Shown piece after piece: positions 1 to 4,831 of a DNA stretch of 52,146 nucleotides. The translations under genes were made by a program, and so were the position numbers. The stretch comes from Bacteroidales bacterium (GTDB taxonomy: Bacteria; Bacteroidota; Bacteroidia; Bacteroidales; UBA932). The stretch spans positions 1 through 52,146 of the forward strand of contig JAAYDZ010000073.1 of the NCBI GenBank assembly GCA_012728975.1. Reading direction: 5' to 3'. Every line of letters begins with the position of its first letter. Within the stretch, counting starts at the first letter, position 1. A model generated the notes under the pieces. It made no database searches and was not told where the DNA came from. It worked only from the letters and a program-made list of their open reading frames with translations.

Positions 1-41
1 CACCTGACCAAAGAACGGAGTAACACAAAAAATTTAGCTTT

Positions 42-239
42 ATGGAAGAAAAACGATTGAAAGCACTGGGATTGAGGGAAATGACTTCCATTGAACTCCA
101 GTCGGCAGGCGGGGCAACTGTGAGTGCCGTCACATTATTCGAAAAAGTAAGAGCCATCATCAATTTTATAGGTGACTATCTGCCAAAACTCCTAAGAGGA
201 ATTATTGACGGATGGAATAGTATCAAAGGGAAAAAATGA
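42..239 (+). CDS. Double-glycine-leader secreted peptide 1 (putative bacteriocin component)
   Basis: 65-residue precursor. The leader runs to Gly23-Gly24-Ala25. With cleavage after Gly24-Ala25, the residues M-12, E-8, L-7 and A-4 fit the LSxxELxxIxG(G/A) pattern of leaders removed by peptidase-containing ABC transporters (family knowledge). The predicted mature part (about 40 residues) is amphipathic, net about +4, has a GIIDG (GxxxG) motif and ends in KGKK. The next gene encodes a second peptide of the same design, and the GLR triplet sits at -16 to -14 in both leaders if this one is cut after GA. A TolC-type channel and an adaptor follow. A two-peptide bacteriocin is the favoured reading; a signalling peptide is the alternative. 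No modification enzyme is visible. Function is inferred, not recognised by homology. Confidence 0.7.
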   Translation: MEEKRLKALGLREMTSIELQSAGGATVSAVTLFEKVRAIINFIGDYLPKLLRGIIDGWNSIKGKK

Positions 240-240
240 T

Positions 241-247
241 GGAGGGG
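241..247 (+). promoter_or_regulatory. Purine-rich Shine-Dalgarno-like site of peptide 2
   Basis: GGAGGGG begins two bases after the stop of peptide 1 and ends seven bases before the ATG at 255. Strong Shine-Dalgarno sites are uncommon in Bacteroidota, so this one stands out and supports the chosen start. Confidence 0.5.
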
Positions 248-254
248 TCTGACT

Positions 255-446
255 ATGATAGAAAATTTCACGGTACCGGGACTCAGACCTATTGAGGTAC
301 GCGAGTCGGTTTGCATCGTTGGAGGCCTTGATAAAAAGGCCCAGGATGCACTTTACTACATCGGTTATGTTATCGGGCTTGTAGCGCAGTATATCTGCAC
401 TTTCTTTAAAAAATTAAAAAGCCTTACCGGAGGAAAGAAAGTATAA
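255..446 (+). CDS. Double-glycine-leader secreted peptide 2 (putative bacteriocin partner)
   Basis: 63-residue precursor with a 24-residue leader ending CIVGG; E-8 and I-4 fit the double-glycine leader pattern. The predicted mature peptide is 39 residues, net about +5, with one cysteine, a hydrophobic centre holding GYVIG (GxxxG), and a Lys-rich end (GGKKV) like that of peptide 1. It starts 15 bases after peptide 1, so the two are very likely co-transcribed. Paired genes with one GxxxG each are the hallmark of class IIb bacteriocins (established for Gram-positive bacteria); applying this to a Bacteroidota pair is inference. No immunity protein follows; the next gene encodes the export channel. 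It could also be a quorum peptide. Confidence 0.7.
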   Translation: MIENFTVPGLRPIEVRESVCIVGGLDKKAQDALYYIGYVIGLVAQYICTFFKKLKSLTGGKKV

Positions 447-458
447 CCGTCCAATAGC

Positions 459-493
459 GGGAATTCCGGGTGCTCGCGGCACCCGGGAATCCC
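459..493 (+). terminator. GC-rich hairpin between peptide genes and export genes (attenuator candidate)
   Basis: Bases 459-473 pair with 479-493 around a 5-base loop: 13 Watson-Crick pairs, one G-T wobble and one A-A mismatch. The tail (ATTTATT) is only weakly T-rich, so termination would be partial. The position, right after the second peptide stop and 20 bases before the channel gene, suits an attenuator that keeps peptide mRNA in excess over transporter mRNA. Confidence 0.6.
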
Positions 494-512: not shown

Positions 513-1802
513 ATGAAAAGAAATACAAAGTGCCTTACGCTGACAACCGTCCTGCTGCTTGCAGGTACACTCTTCTTATCGGGGCAAAGCTGGACTCTGG
601 AGCAATGCATCATTCACGCAATGGAGCATAACCACGATATCAAAAGTGCCCAGGCCTCACTCAAAGAGAGCGAAAGTGCACTGAAGGAGCTCTCCTGGAG
701 TCTTATTCCGCATATAGGAGGAGAAATTGGGCATGATTTCAACTGGGAGCGTCTCTCGCCATACAAACTCAAGGGAACACAAGGCACCAATGCCTCGATA
801 GGAGGCAGCGTAACACTATTCGAGGGGCTCAAGGGCTACTTCAGTATCAAAGAAGCCGGTTACTCACTCAAACAGGCAGCCGGATCTCTCGAAGGGATGC
901 GTGATGCGGTTAAAGTCAGTGTTATCCGAAGCTGCCTCCAAATGGTACTGGCGAAAGAACTGCACTCCATAGCGGAATATAACTGTGAGAGCATCATCAG
1001 ACAAATGGAGAAATGTCGTAAGATGGTGCTGGCGGGGCTGCGTCCCTTGAGCAGCCTGATGGAACTCGAGGCCCAGGTAGCCCAGGAGCAGTACACTATA
1101 ACCGCCTCCGCCGCAGAGATCGATAATAGCCGCATTGCACTCATGCAGCTGATTAATCTCCCGTATGACAGCCGATTTGACGTAGAGGTTCCGGCTATGG
1201 ATACGCTGCCTACGGAGGAAATTTTGGAGATATCGGCATACAAGATAGCTGATGCGCATCCCTCCACGAGGGCTGCAAAAGCTGCCCTGGAGGCAGATAG
1301 AGCTGCCATAGGGGTAGCAGCAAGTGCACTCTCTCCAATCATAACACTCTCAACAGGTTATGGGACTTACTACAACAATGCGGTTGATAAAAAATTCAAA
1401 GAGCAGTTCAAAGAGCATTGGACTCCTTTTGTGGGATTTACACTTAAACTGCCTATTACGGGATCCATTGCCACAGTTCACAGGATTAAAAGAGCAAAAA
1501 GCGCCCTTTCCAGAAGCAGCATCGCTTTGGAAAAAGTTCGTCGGAAAATTGCTGATGAGATCGAGCTGGCCATAGCAGAGTGCCGCAGTTGCCGCAGTCG
1601 CTGCATTGCTGCAGAAAAGAGCCGCAAAGCCTCCGAAGAGCTTTTACGCATGAACGAATTTAAGCTAGAAGTGGGGGAAATCTCAGCCACCGATTACATC
1701 ATTTCCAAGAACCTTTGCCTAAAAGCCACTTCAGAGCATGTTCAGGCCTATTTCCAGTATTTATTCCAGCGGATGATCGTAGAGCACTACTTAGGCAAAT
1801 AG
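513..1802 (+). CDS. TolC-family outer membrane efflux/secretion channel
   Basis: 429 residues, normal for the outer membrane factor family. An N-terminal signal peptide (Lys/Arg start, Leu-rich core, about 25 residues) is followed by WTLEQCIIHAMEHNHDI, the usual opening of mature TolC-like proteins. Two long alpha-helical repeats (Ala, Glu and Lys rich) and a strand-forming region around residue 280 (STGYGTYY) match a trimeric barrel plus periplasmic tunnel. It would carry substrate from a periplasmic adaptor across the outer membrane. The adaptor gene follows after 23 bases. Its place behind the two leader peptides suggests they are substrates, although a general drug-efflux role cannot be excluded. 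The ATG at 513 is the only start that keeps the signal peptide. Confidence 0.88.
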   Translation: MKRNTKCLTLTTVLLLAGTLFLSGQSWTLEQCIIHAMEHNHDIKSAQASLKESESALKELSWSLIPHIGGEIGHDFNWERLSPYKLKGTQGTNASIGGSVTLFEGLKGYFSIKEAGYSLKQAAGSLEGMRDAVKVSVIRSCLQMVLAKELHSIAEYNCESIIRQMEKCRKMVLAGLRPLSSLMELEAQVAQEQYTITASAAEIDNSRIALMQLINLPYDSRFDVEVPAMDTLPTEEILEISAYKIADAHPSTRAAKAALEADRAAIGVAASALSPIITLSTGYGTYYNNAVDKKFKEQFKEHWTPFVGFTLKLPITGSIATVHRIKRAKSALSRSSIALEKVRRKIADEIELAIAECRSCRSRCIAAEKSRKASEELLRMNEFKLEVGEISATDYIISKNLCLKATSEHVQAYFQYLFQRMIVEHYLGK

Positions 1803-1825: not shown

Positions 1826-3019
1826 ATGAAATTGAGGAAAATTAAATTGAAAAAATGGCATATAGTAATGCTCATCGTCGCTGTGGTACTAATCGTGATA
1901 CTTATAGCGTCAGGAGGTGGAAACGTAACAGAAGTACGTTTGTTTACTATAGAAAAAAAGGATCTGGTGGAAAGTATTCCCGCCAACGGCAAAGTAAGAC
2001 CGGTAATCGAAGTCTCCATCACTCCGGATGTCTCAGGTGAAATCGTGGAACTCAATTGTCGCGAGGGAGATAATGTCAGCAAAGGAGATGTACTTGTAAA
2101 AATCCGCCAGGATGTCTATATTTCTATGGTAGAAAGAGCGGAAGCTGTACTCAATGCGGCCAGAAGCGACTATCTGCAACAAAAAGCCCAGTTTAAACAA
2201 GCAGAAGTCAATTTCAAGCGCAATAAGATTCTTTATAAGGAGAACGTAATCTCAGCAGCCGAATATGAGACATCACAACTAAACTTTGAAATAGCCAAAG
2301 AACAACTCACAGCAGCACAATATGGTGTTAGTAGTGGCAGGGCCGCTCTGAAAGAGGCAACGGAAAATCTCACCAAGACTGTAATCTGCGCCCCGATGGA
2401 TGGAACCATCTCAATGATTGCCGTAAAAACAGGCGAGCGGGTTGTTGGCACAAGTCAGATGGCAGGTACTGAAATCATGCGGATAGCTGACCTTAGCGAC
2501 ATGGAAGTAGTGGTGGATGTCAACGAAAATGATATTCTCAAACTTAACCCTGGAAATAGCGCAAAAATAGATATTGATGCCTGTCCCGGGCAATTATTTG
2601 AGGGAATTGTAACACAAATTGCAAATTCGGCCACAAATTTGTACTCAAACTTTGAACAAGTTACTACCTTTGAGGTCAGGATTGGCATACAGTGTGATAC
2701 AACAGCAGGTGTAACTTCCCCTACTACACTCCCTTTTAGACCGGGAATGTCAGCCAGGGTTACAATAGTGACAGGACATAGGGCAGATATAATGACGGTC
2801 CCCATTGAGGCGGTTTTCATTAGAAACGGGATTGAGTGCGTATGGAGAGTGGATGAGAAAAATACCGTGCATGCGACACCTGTAATGTCAGGTATTCAGG
2901 ATTTTAGCTCCATAGAGATAATATCGGGACTGGAGCCTGGAAGTAGAATAGTTGCCGGTCCCTACTCAGCTATAAGTAAAGAGTTGGAAGAGGGAATGAA
3001 AGTCCGTGGGACAATGTGA
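1826..3019 (+). CDS. HlyD/MacA-type periplasmic adaptor (membrane fusion protein)
   Basis: 397 residues. One N-terminal membrane segment (about residues 12-28), then a first biotinyl-lipoyl half (about 50-90), an alpha-helical hairpin (about 95-180), a second lipoyl half containing APMDGTI, a beta-barrel and a membrane-proximal domain ending near VAGPYSAI. The family links an inner-membrane ABC or RND pump to a TolC channel. No pump gene lies in the window: upstream are only the peptide genes and the window edge, downstream is tsaB. MacA-like adaptors usually pair with MacB, and peptide exporters with a peptidase-ABC protein; which applies here cannot be decided from the window. Confidence 0.87.
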   Translation: MKLRKIKLKKWHIVMLIVAVVLIVILIASGGGNVTEVRLFTIEKKDLVESIPANGKVRPVIEVSITPDVSGEIVELNCREGDNVSKGDVLVKIRQDVYISMVERAEAVLNAARSDYLQQKAQFKQAEVNFKRNKILYKENVISAAEYETSQLNFEIAKEQLTAAQYGVSSGRAALKEATENLTKTVICAPMDGTISMIAVKTGERVVGTSQMAGTEIMRIADLSDMEVVVDVNENDILKLNPGNSAKIDIDACPGQLFEGIVTQIANSATNLYSNFEQVTTFEVRIGIQCDTTAGVTSPTTLPFRPGMSARVTIVTGHRADIMTVPIEAVFIRNGIECVWRVDEKNTVHATPVMSGIQDFSSIEIISGLEPGSRIVAGPYSAISKELEEGMKVRGTM

Positions 3020-3035
3020 AGAACAATTATTTGAT

Positions 3036-3716
3036 ATGAAAGACACCGTTTTTCTCCTGCTGGAGACCAGCACAGAGATTTGTACCACAGTTTTAACGAA
3101 AGGGGGCGAAGTGATTGCTTCCAGATACTGTGACCGGCCTAAAAGTCACGCATCAAGACTTGCAGTGCAAATAAGTGAAGTATTTGCCGAAAGCGGTATG
3201 ACTATCGCAGAGTGCGATGCTGTAGCGGTAAGTGAAGGTCCCGGCTCATACACCGGTCTGAGAGTTGGAGTTTCCACTGCCAAAGGTCTTTGTTTTGGTT
3301 CTGGCAAACCACTTATAAGCGTTCCAACTCCGCAAATTCTGGCAATGGCGGCAGTTGACAGGGCGGACAAGATTGTTGCCCTTATAGATGCACGCAGGAT
3401 GGAGGCATATTGTGCCGTTTTTGACCGCAACGGCACTCCTCTGGTGGAAGTTGAACCTATTATCTTTGACAAAGATAGTTTTAGAGATCTTTTGGATGAG
3501 GATAGCGTTATTTTTGTAGGAAATGCCGCCTCCAAATTACAAGGTGTAATCAGCCATCCCAACGCTATTTTCGAGCAGTGTAATCCTTTGGCACAGCATA
3601 TGATCATCCCGGCCACTAAGGCATTTACAAAAAAAGAGTTCAAAGATATTGCCTACTTTGAACCCTTCTATCTTAAGGACTTTGTTGCCGGTATCAGCAA
3701 GAAAAAGCTGCTCTAG
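3036..3716 (+). CDS. tsaB: tRNA threonylcarbamoyladenosine biosynthesis protein TsaB
   Basis: 226 residues from the ATG at 3036; an upstream in-frame GTG at 3006 would overlap the adaptor gene and add nonconserved residues. The N-terminus is an ASKHA-fold start (LLLETSTEICTT), and GPGSYTGLRVG at about residues 68-78 is the TsaB signature. TsaB is the inactive paralogue that scaffolds TsaD/TsaE during synthesis of t6A37 on ANN-decoding tRNAs in the cytoplasm. It follows the adaptor gene by 16 bases, probably read from the same transcript. Its TAG stop overlaps the TAG of the convergent lipoprotein gene within a CTAG palindrome at 3713-3716. Confidence 0.93.
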   Translation: MKDTVFLLLETSTEICTTVLTKGGEVIASRYCDRPKSHASRLAVQISEVFAESGMTIAECDAVAVSEGPGSYTGLRVGVSTAKGLCFGSGKPLISVPTPQILAMAAVDRADKIVALIDARRMEAYCAVFDRNGTPLVEVEPIIFDKDSFRDLLDEDSVIFVGNAASKLQGVISHPNAIFEQCNPLAQHMIIPATKAFTKKEFKDIAYFEPFYLKDFVAGISKKKLL

Positions 3717-4831
3717 ATCTGCGCTTTAATTACTTTTTCCAGCTCATCCTTTTCAAACAGATCCTTGCCAACGATCGAGCCGTCGCGCCCTATGACGAAA
3801 AATGTCGGTATCTGTGTTATGTTGTATGCAGTCATTGAGGGCGAGTTGATACCGTTACCATCGTTTACGCAGGTCCAGGGGAGTTGCTGTGACCTTACAA
3901 TAGATGCCCACGAGGCCTTATCTATATCGAGAGAAATCTGGTAAACCTCAAGTCCCTTTGAATTATATTTCTGATAGAGTTCTATAAGATCGTTGTTGAA
4001 CATCTTGTGTGCATCCTGCGCAACGCTCCAGAAAGAGAGGATAATTACCTTACCGGTCAAATCAGAAAGACGTTTCATCTCACCTTTATCATCTGGCATT
4101 TCGAGATCCGGGAAGAGAGCCTCCTGGACATTGGAGAGTTTATGACTCAACTCAAATGCTCTCTCTCTGGCTGTTATCTCATCTCTGAGCGCAATCACAT
4201 ACTCAGACTGAGGATATACAGTCTGAAGGGAGTCATACACCTGCCTGAAAATGAACAGATCACTAATTTCACCGAATACGGGAAGATTTTCATTAAAACG
4301 CTGGAAAAGCGTTGTGGCTGCCGTGATCGAGTGGGGATTTCCTAAAACATGTTTTAGAGCGGTTTTGCGGTACTCTATATAAGTCCTTCCCATATCCAGC
4401 CCTACATCTTCACCCTCAGCACTTCTGGCTGCCAAATCTGAGAGCTGAGCGGAGGTTTTGAGAAACTCCTTGTCAATGGCCTGAAGCAAGAGAGATTCTT
4501 CGCTACCCTCTACTGTAAAGTTACCATTGAGGTCAGCCTTGATAGTAACCCTGTCTTTGGGGAGAAGTACCATTGATGCCAGCTTAGTTCCTTCATAATA
4601 TAGATAGTAGAATCCTGGGGAAGCGCTGGAAAGCTTCACTTTATAATTGAAGTTGCCGTCAGGTGTGGTCTTAATGGTGTCAATCACCTGTATTTTGCTG
4701 AAATTGAGCTTTTGGAGCACAATAGGTGTCTCTTCTGCACCCTCAATAGAGCCCTTTATCACAGCCGTCGGCTTCTGAGAGCAGGCTGCGAAAATAAAAA
4801 GTGCGCAGACAAATGAAAAAAATCTCTTCAT
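3713..4831 (-). CDS. Thioredoxin-fold lipoprotein lacking the CxxC motif
   Basis: 372 residues. A lipoprotein signal (lipobox ending AAC, Cys17) is followed by a DUF4369-like beta-rich N-terminal domain (about 20-110), a helical middle, and a C-terminal TlpA/AhpC-like thioredoxin fold (about 235-372). The segment that normally reads WASWCGPC reads WSVAQDAH, so both redox cysteines are replaced (Gln272, His275), whereas the cis-proline loop (IPTFFVIG, Pro342) is kept. It is therefore probably redox-inactive, with a binding or scaffolding role in the envelope. The HIT gene lies 3 bases upstream, so the two are likely an operon with greA. Confidence 0.85.
   Translation of the reverse strand: MKRFFSFVCALFIFAACSQKPTAVIKGSIEGAEETPIVLQKLNFSKIQVIDTIKTTPDGNFNYKVKLSSASPGFYYLYYEGTKLASMVLLPKDRVTIKADLNGNFTVEGSEESLLLQAIDKEFLKTSAQLSDLAARSAEGEDVGLDMGRTYIEYRKTALKHVLGNPHSITAATTLFQRFNENLPVFGEISDLFIFRQVYDSLQTVYPQSEYVIALRDEITARERAFELSHKLSNVQEALFPDLEMPDDKGEMKRLSDLTGKVIILSFWSVAQDAHKMFNNDLIELYQKYNSKGLEVYQISLDIDKASWASIVRSQQLPWTCVNDGNGINSPSMTAYNITQIPTFFVIGRDGSIVGKDLFEKDELEKVIKAQI

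Follow-up and report, generated by a model that had tools for sequence, protein, structure and literature searches.

We propose that two small adjacent genes at the left end of the window belong, together with an upstream C39-peptidase ABC exporter, to a class IIb-like, helix-pairing, membrane-active two-peptide export cassette, a reading that we hold to be moderately probable. The window is the whole stretch of 52,146 nucleotides analysed here and corresponds to contig C66 of a genome of 1.83 Mb (76 contigs, 90.55% complete). The gene order, the leaders, the intact C39 residues, the co-conservation of the two peptides and the retention of their GxxxG motifs can be read directly from the DNA. 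Export and pairing of the two peptides are supported by these sequence features, and killing by the pair is something we infer from the analogy with class IIb bacteriocins. In the following, pep1 and pep2 denote peptide 1 and peptide 2, the cassette is the C39-ABC exporter with pep1 and pep2, and the labels g, G and L stand for genus, genome and locus, respectively, with g1 being the genus of the source genome.

An earlier note on this DNA had described a candidate two-peptide bacteriocin or pair of secreted peptides encoded by adjacent genes of 65 and 63 codons. Both open reading frames are present, start with ATG and are separated by 15 nt, with pep1 at 42..239 and pep2 at 255..446, each on the plus strand. 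As was also claimed, each precursor carries a double-glycine leader: GG occupies residues 23-24 of both, giving leaders of 24 aa (42-113 and 255-326), which are moderately alike (profile comparison: probability 60%, E 8.7e-5). The proposed alignment of a GLR motif in the two leaders holds if pep1 is cut after Gly-Ala; however, the GG never varies among 33 aligned pep1 sequences and the residue after it does, so we rejected that cut and consider cleavage after GG more likely in both peptides. The mature parts would then be 41 aa (pep1) and 39 aa (pep2) long, instead of the 39-40 aa given before, with calculated masses of about 4546 and 4385 Da if unmodified. Each contains the single GxxxG motif described for it, GIIDG in pep1 and GYVIG in pep2, and they have no and one cysteine, respectively. 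Other proposed features are true of this pair rather than of its relatives. The mature peptides are cationic (+4 and +5), but among 69 distinct mature pairs the net charge averages +1.0 for pep1 (-5 to +5) and +2.2 for pep2 (-4 to +6), and the Gly-Lys-Lys tail is found in the source species and its closest kin but not in the wider family; neither charge nor Lys tail is conserved over the 69 pairs. As to amphipathicity, pep1 reaches a maximal helical moment of 0.66 (z 2.5 relative to shuffled sequences) and pep2 only 0.48 (z 1.6). For 20 hand-chosen members, the maximal helical moment has a mean z of 2.5 (pep1) and 1.9 (pep2), with values near zero in some pep2 members.

The C39-peptidase ABC gene that the earlier note expected near the locus lies directly upstream, on a second contig, C41. 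Positions 1..120 of the window (plus strand) are 100% identical to bases 1-120 of C41, read on its minus strand, and C41 supplies the upstream side, with a 694-aa exporter that ends just before pep1 and contains the domains PF03412 (peptidase C39), PF00664 (ABC membrane) and PF00005 (ABC ATPase). An ORF of 51 aa with one hydrophobic helix is also found on C41, upstream of the window. Across the break between C41 and C66, the gene order is unbroken in relatives. The break falls around the pep1 leader, with the 120-base identical overlap, and strain variation just 3' of this leader may have caused it. On the other side of the peptides, the plus strand codes for a 429-aa TolC/OEP outer-membrane channel (513..1802; PF02321, E 2.1e-42, with a TIGR01844 match under its cut-off) and for a 397-aa RND_mfp/MacA-like periplasmic adaptor or membrane fusion protein (1826..3019; TIGR01730, PF16576 and PF13437), which reaches 197.6 bits against TIGR01730 (cut-off 94.9) and matches the MacA model under its cut-off. 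The following PF00814 frame (3006..3716, plus strand), which from its size and family we take to be tsaB, just as the name ileS used below is our reading, forms a conserved right flank outside the system, and its position is shared by relatives wherever the contig extends that far. Pfam further supports a class I tRNA synthetase, CvpA, a thioredoxin-like protein, HIT, GreA and riboflavin kinase among the neighbours in the source genome. The thioredoxin-like gene (PF13905, AhpC-TSA; window 3713-4831, minus strand) lies past tsaB and is conserved there in most g1 loci with a stretch long enough to include it. CvpA ('colicin V production', PF02674; L003:2600-3082, minus strand) adjoins the exporter in most loci, a link that is probably positional, since CvpA is also present in the cassette-free loci L172, L173, L179 and L185.

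Between pep2 and tolC, a GC-rich hairpin is found at 459..493 (plus strand). The region 440-520 folds with -29.9 kcal/mol (z -3.6), a value equalled by 1 of 200 shuffles, and the hairpin is not listed by the terminator scan. Many relatives have a GC-rich hairpin at this place, often T-tailed and differing in sequence, and others have none. It is possibly an attenuator or an mRNA end, where partial termination would favour an excess of the peptides.

Genus g1 holds "Candidatus Cacconaster" (GTDB Bact-11, family UBA932), and Cacconaster (GTDB Bact-11) and Equibacterium have both been placed in this family (PMC8957277). Peptide 1 was present in 34 of 61 relatives, all belonging to g1, of which the sample had 37 genomes. 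The exporter, pep1 and pep2 are consecutive on one contig in all 33 further g1 genomes chosen by a pep1 match; the spacing between the peptide ORFs is 3-19 nt in the 32 loci measured, and they are adjacent in the 33rd (G026) as well. Where the stretch extends far enough, ileS (opposite strand) and cvpA lie on one side and tolC, the adaptor gene and tsaB on the other, the exceptions being L078 and L083 without a cvpA match and L091 without ileS; the contigs of L077 and L079 stop before or within tolC. In the family-wide sample, the pep2 profile matches 37 of 40 g1 genomes, and an absence of pep2 cannot be claimed for the other three because the region is not assembled in them (G007 and G019 are without a tsaB match and the G012 contig begins inside tsaB). 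The pep2 alignment picked out 45 loci in named genomes, all 45 of which also have the exporter and pep1. By title, they come from Bacteroidales/Bacteroidia metagenome assemblies, many from rumen or horse gut, and include Candidatus Cacconaster, Bact_11 and Candidatus Equibacterium. The named loci L104-L148 overlap the G-labelled genomes (L104 and G005 share peptides), and the two sets are not independent. We examined the three findings that the earlier note had named as speaking against it and observed none of them: a peptidase-ABC gene is present at the related loci, both peptides stand beside the exporter in every locus read in detail, and the GG and GxxxG positions are conserved among homologues, both in the aligned g1 sets and in the 69 distinct pairs.

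Invariant residues in the alignments are M1, E2, G10, S16, E18, L19, G23, G24, Y46, P48, G53 and G57 of pep1 (33 sequences) and G23, G24, D26, A29, Q30, G37, Y38 and G41 of pep2 (34 sequences). For diverged precursors we set the start codon manually, a choice that leaves the mature parts unaffected. Among five close species, dN/dS ranges from 0 to 0.38 for the full-length genes and up to 0.47 for the mature parts; the peptide genes are under purifying selection. All 70 of 70 exporter loci, a few of them representing one genome counted twice, have the Q, C, H and D of the C39 domain at the positions that we take to be those of the family. A strict GxxxG motif is found in pep1 of 68 of the 69 pairs, in pep2 of 63 and in both peptides of 62. 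It is missing in pep1 of G515 and in pep2 of G443 and of five members of one g219 subgroup, and inspection by eye showed that one Gly is replaced by Ala in each of these seven pairs; such a variant counts as GxxxG-like, a looser motif (PMC6957408). The mere presence of GxxxG means little, as 26% and 27% of shuffles of the two mature peptides of the source genome contain it. Its retention exceeds chance, since 17 of 19 hand-chosen pairs have the motif in both peptides compared with 0.75 expected from shuffles, a comparison that controls for composition but not for common descent.

By inspection, the cassette occurs in 11 genera (g1, g219, g211, g210, g208, g222, g28, g217, g216, g27 and g225). 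The profiles match neither peptide of g27 (G162) or g225 (G446), and we assigned these two by position, exporter and the presence of two GG frames. All 20 loci of other genera picked by a pep2 profile match contain the cassette. Among 18 genomes, drawn from 16 other UBA932 genera, whose tsaB region we inspected, six have the cassette (g28 twice, g217, g216, g27 and g225), and in four cvpA is directly followed by tsaB with the cassette absent there (g26 twice, g220 and g214). Four have tolC and the adaptor gene before tsaB with a C39-ABC not in view (g221, which is contig-limited, g218, g226 and g213), and in the last four (g215, g212, g223 and g224, some limited by contig ends) the exporter is absent beside tsaB. 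None of 13 genomes of other families, some with short contigs, has the cassette beside tsaB. The pep1 profile has matches in 37 of 119 family genomes, covering nine genera, which supports a common descent of most diverged pairs. In a plausible history, tolC and the adaptor gene were there first, the exporter and peptides entered between cvpA and this older pair, and some lineages lost the exporter and peptides again. Three of the genomes of other families (L194, L195 and L199) have tolC and the adaptor gene directly 5' of tsaB without exporter or peptides. In a g219 subgroup (L161, L164, L165, L168 and L169), the exporter and peptides are followed directly by tsaB with no tolC or adaptor gene at the locus, and AxxxG replaces GxxxG in pep2.

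Within the family, 92 of 398 genomes were matched; since matches to roughly positions 17-47 of the model within frames longer than 320 aa were taken as chance, this number does not give a clean family-wide frequency. A profile search across the order gave matches in 3 of 393 genomes, one of them the source genome; the other two matches, located in frames 343 and 365 aa long, were dismissed as chance. A tblastn comparison gave no match to pep2 among 72,556 plasmid records and none to pep1 among 50,697 phage records. Over the 29 of 45 named loci in which all genes are present, the pairwise peptide distances correlate with those of the exporter (r 0.93) and of IleS (r 0.71); in this comparison, a TsaB distance of 1.00 suggests a misread frame. 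Judged by its neighbourhood and these distances, the cassette belongs to the core loci of a family of gut Bacteroidota and is passed on vertically.

The two-peptide arrangement is known mainly from lactic acid bacteria, and class IIb bacteriocins are unmodified, cationic peptides that kill when both are present in roughly equal amounts and whose clusters encode a dedicated membrane immunity protein. As in class IIb systems such as lactococcin G and the plantaricins, two different small peptides with GG leaders are encoded by adjacent genes and accompanied by a C39-ABC protein, and each peptide has a GxxxG or GxxxG-like motif, as described for class IIb peptides (PMC6957408). Unlike in these systems, the host is Gram-negative, an adaptor and TolC are present, the locus is a core chromosomal one, the charge is not conserved, and a recognised immunity gene is absent in most members. 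The description as paired secreted peptides is well supported, and the label class IIb-like is supported in the predicted anatomy. Based on known families, we propose that the two precursors, with their similar GG leaders, are made together, that each is cleaved after GG by the C39 domain of the ABC exporter encoded upstream, and that the peptides leave the cell via a tripartite channel of ABC protein, MacA-like adaptor and TolC. By analogy with class IIb peptides, the mature peptides would pair helix to helix via their conserved GxxxG faces and enter the membrane of susceptible cells as a unit, damaging it. Which cells would be targets, and how the producer would protect itself, we infer only.

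A recognised immunity gene was not found in the loci of most members. A candidate by position is the ORF of about 51 aa found between cvpA and the exporter, which has a single hydrophobic helix at its C terminus; it is present in 31 of 34 g1 loci and missing in L070, L072 and L075. A similar small ORF lies at that place in g210 (3 of 3), g222 (1 of 1) and g216 (1 of 1); none was seen in nine named g219-type loci (L126, L129, L133, L138, L139, L140, L144, L145 and L148), in further g219 loci or in g211, g28, g217 and g225. The ORF of the source genome has no Pfam or NCBIfam match. In one g225 genome (G446), a CPBP/Abi protein is encoded between pep2 and tolC (PF02517, E 9.6e-15), and its translation shows the motifs EExxxR, FxxxH and HxxxD. 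Some immunity proteins of two-peptide bacteriocins belong to the Abi family (PMC6957408, citing Kjos et al. 2010), and this gene is the kind that the class IIb reading would predict, seen in one genome. As the G446 peptides are unmatched by either profile, the link is based on position and anatomy. Scanning six frames upstream of tolC in exporter-free lineages revealed no CPBP/Abi gene.

A core, vertical locus contrasts with the patchy distribution and linked immunity that one would expect for a bacteriocin, and with a conserved mature sequence it would be hard for the peptides to tell kin from rival, which speaks against the class IIb-like reading. The variable charge, the lack of a recognised immunity gene in most members, the seven pairs with one peptide short of strict GxxxG, the five g219 loci devoid of tolC and adaptor gene and the weak amphipathicity of some pep2 members count against it as well. 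In view of the core nature of the locus and its variable charge, we retain two further explanations. The peptides could be a conserved communication or developmental pair that is exported and sensed by kin, or acts on the own envelope, and does not kill. We regard this as rather unlikely, although vertical inheritance of the locus with distances that follow the exporter (r 0.93) and IleS (r 0.71), mature parts that are conserved within g1, the variable charge and the lack of a clear immunity gene would all suit it. However, no sensor kinase or transcription regulator was found in seven flanking frames of the source genome, save for a DksA/TraR-type zinc-finger frame beyond ileS, and a GxxxG motif in both peptides fits packing of membrane helices better than recognition by a receptor. 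The CPBP/Abi gene of G446 also argues against signalling. Nor did the scanned flanking frames of the source genome contain a modification enzyme.

Alternatively, the pair could be directed at the producing population itself and serve autolysis or cannibalism, similar to the double-glycine Nap peptides of gonococcal autolysis. Conservation as a core locus without an obvious dedicated immunity gene would agree with this, and for cationic GG peptides accompanied by a C39 peptidase, a role in autolysis but no killing of competitors has been reported (PMC11798529). Nevertheless, we think it improbable, as the Nap system is described as an island obtained by horizontal transfer that comprises four peptides together with a FapF-like channel and an immunity candidate resembling LagC (PMC11798529).

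Equally improbable, in our view, is a single-target toxin of the microcin or bacteroidetocin kind, to which the second peptide would be a helper or an independent toxin. The C39-ABC protein, the adaptor and TolC do resemble the colicin V exporter, and export of a GG-leader peptide by these three components is known for class II microcins of the colicin V type (PMC10352776). Two peptides are present here, however, the adaptor best fits RND_mfp/MacA, where the microcin exporters have one of the HlyD type, and tolC and the adaptor gene adjoin tsaB even in some lineages without exporter and peptides there. Bacteroidetocins share with our pair the occurrence in Bacteroidota, a GG leader, an ABC exporter with a double-glycine peptidase domain and a mature length of about 40 aa (PMC6671954). 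They are described as single peptides with at least two Cys residues and a leader of 15-16 aa, and their genes adjoin one for a five-helix protein and mostly one for a thiol oxidoreductase (PMC6671954). The thioredoxin-like gene on the other strand past tsaB may recall the latter. On the other hand, a mature peptide with two Cys residues is found in none of the 69 pairs, the peptides always occur together in the loci read, and 62 pairs have GxxxG in both members, all of which argues against a single toxin.

The Caulobacter CdzCD system also consists of two small proteins of a Gram-negative bacterium with type I export and GxxxG motifs (PMC5380434). Its extended GxxxGxxxG zippers, precursors of 84-86 aa, RTX-like N termini and surface aggregates, and a cluster that codes for the three-helix immunity protein CdzI and is described without a TolC gene (PMC5380434), set it apart; an extended zipper is absent from the pair studied here and found in 6 of the 69 pairs. 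We rejected a mobile bacteriocin island because of the constant neighbourhood in the g1 loci read, the lack of plasmid matches to pep2 and of phage matches to pep1 and the correlation with IleS distances, and a chance origin because it does not fit the synteny and the retention of GxxxG across genera.

Against NCBIfam, the pep1 and pep2 of the source genome match nothing at E <= 1, and against Pfam the only match is AMIN for pep1 (E 0.17), under its cut-off. For 25 members of A3 (NCBIfam) and of A4 (Pfam), there were scattered matches only, at E 0.011 or weaker. The best profile matches among PDB sequences, to a TetR regulator (E 0.0015) and a heptaprenyl diphosphate synthase (E 0.011), were taken as chance.

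Few bacteriocins are known from Bacteroidales (PMC10352776), and a limited literature survey brought up no characterised two-peptide system in Bacteroidota among the matches listed. An automated BAGEL/antiSMASH annotation of class IIb exists for Bacteroides dorei (PMC11944543), a GG-leader class II gene adjoining a radical SAM gene has been described in Bacteroides (PMC4573289), and the Hungate1000 survey lists 21 two-component clusters in a section that names no Bacteroidota (PMC13289728). The loci described here provide a large, alignable set of natural pairs from a Gram-negative rumen and hindgut group. They make it possible to test whether GxxxG-mediated pairing is the one feature that the peptides can scarcely do without, and what would turn a system of this kind into a core trait. 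Tentatively, and with more doubt than confidence, we speculate that the pair has been fixed since an ancestor of the uncultured family UBA932 as a core trait and not a mobile weapon, that its sequence drifts freely around the two conserved GxxxG helix contacts, and that its target is the own population or the rumen and hindgut Bacteroidota community as a whole. If true, Gram-negative bacteria would have in it a class IIb-like system of a 'housekeeping' kind.

In a genome of another Bacteroidales family (G049), two GG frames of 64 and 66 aa (L099:3108-3302 and 3344-3544), differing in sequence from pep1 and pep2, precede a frame judged by eye to be adaptor-like and a C39-ABC gene. Paired GG peptides may be more widespread in Bacteroidales.
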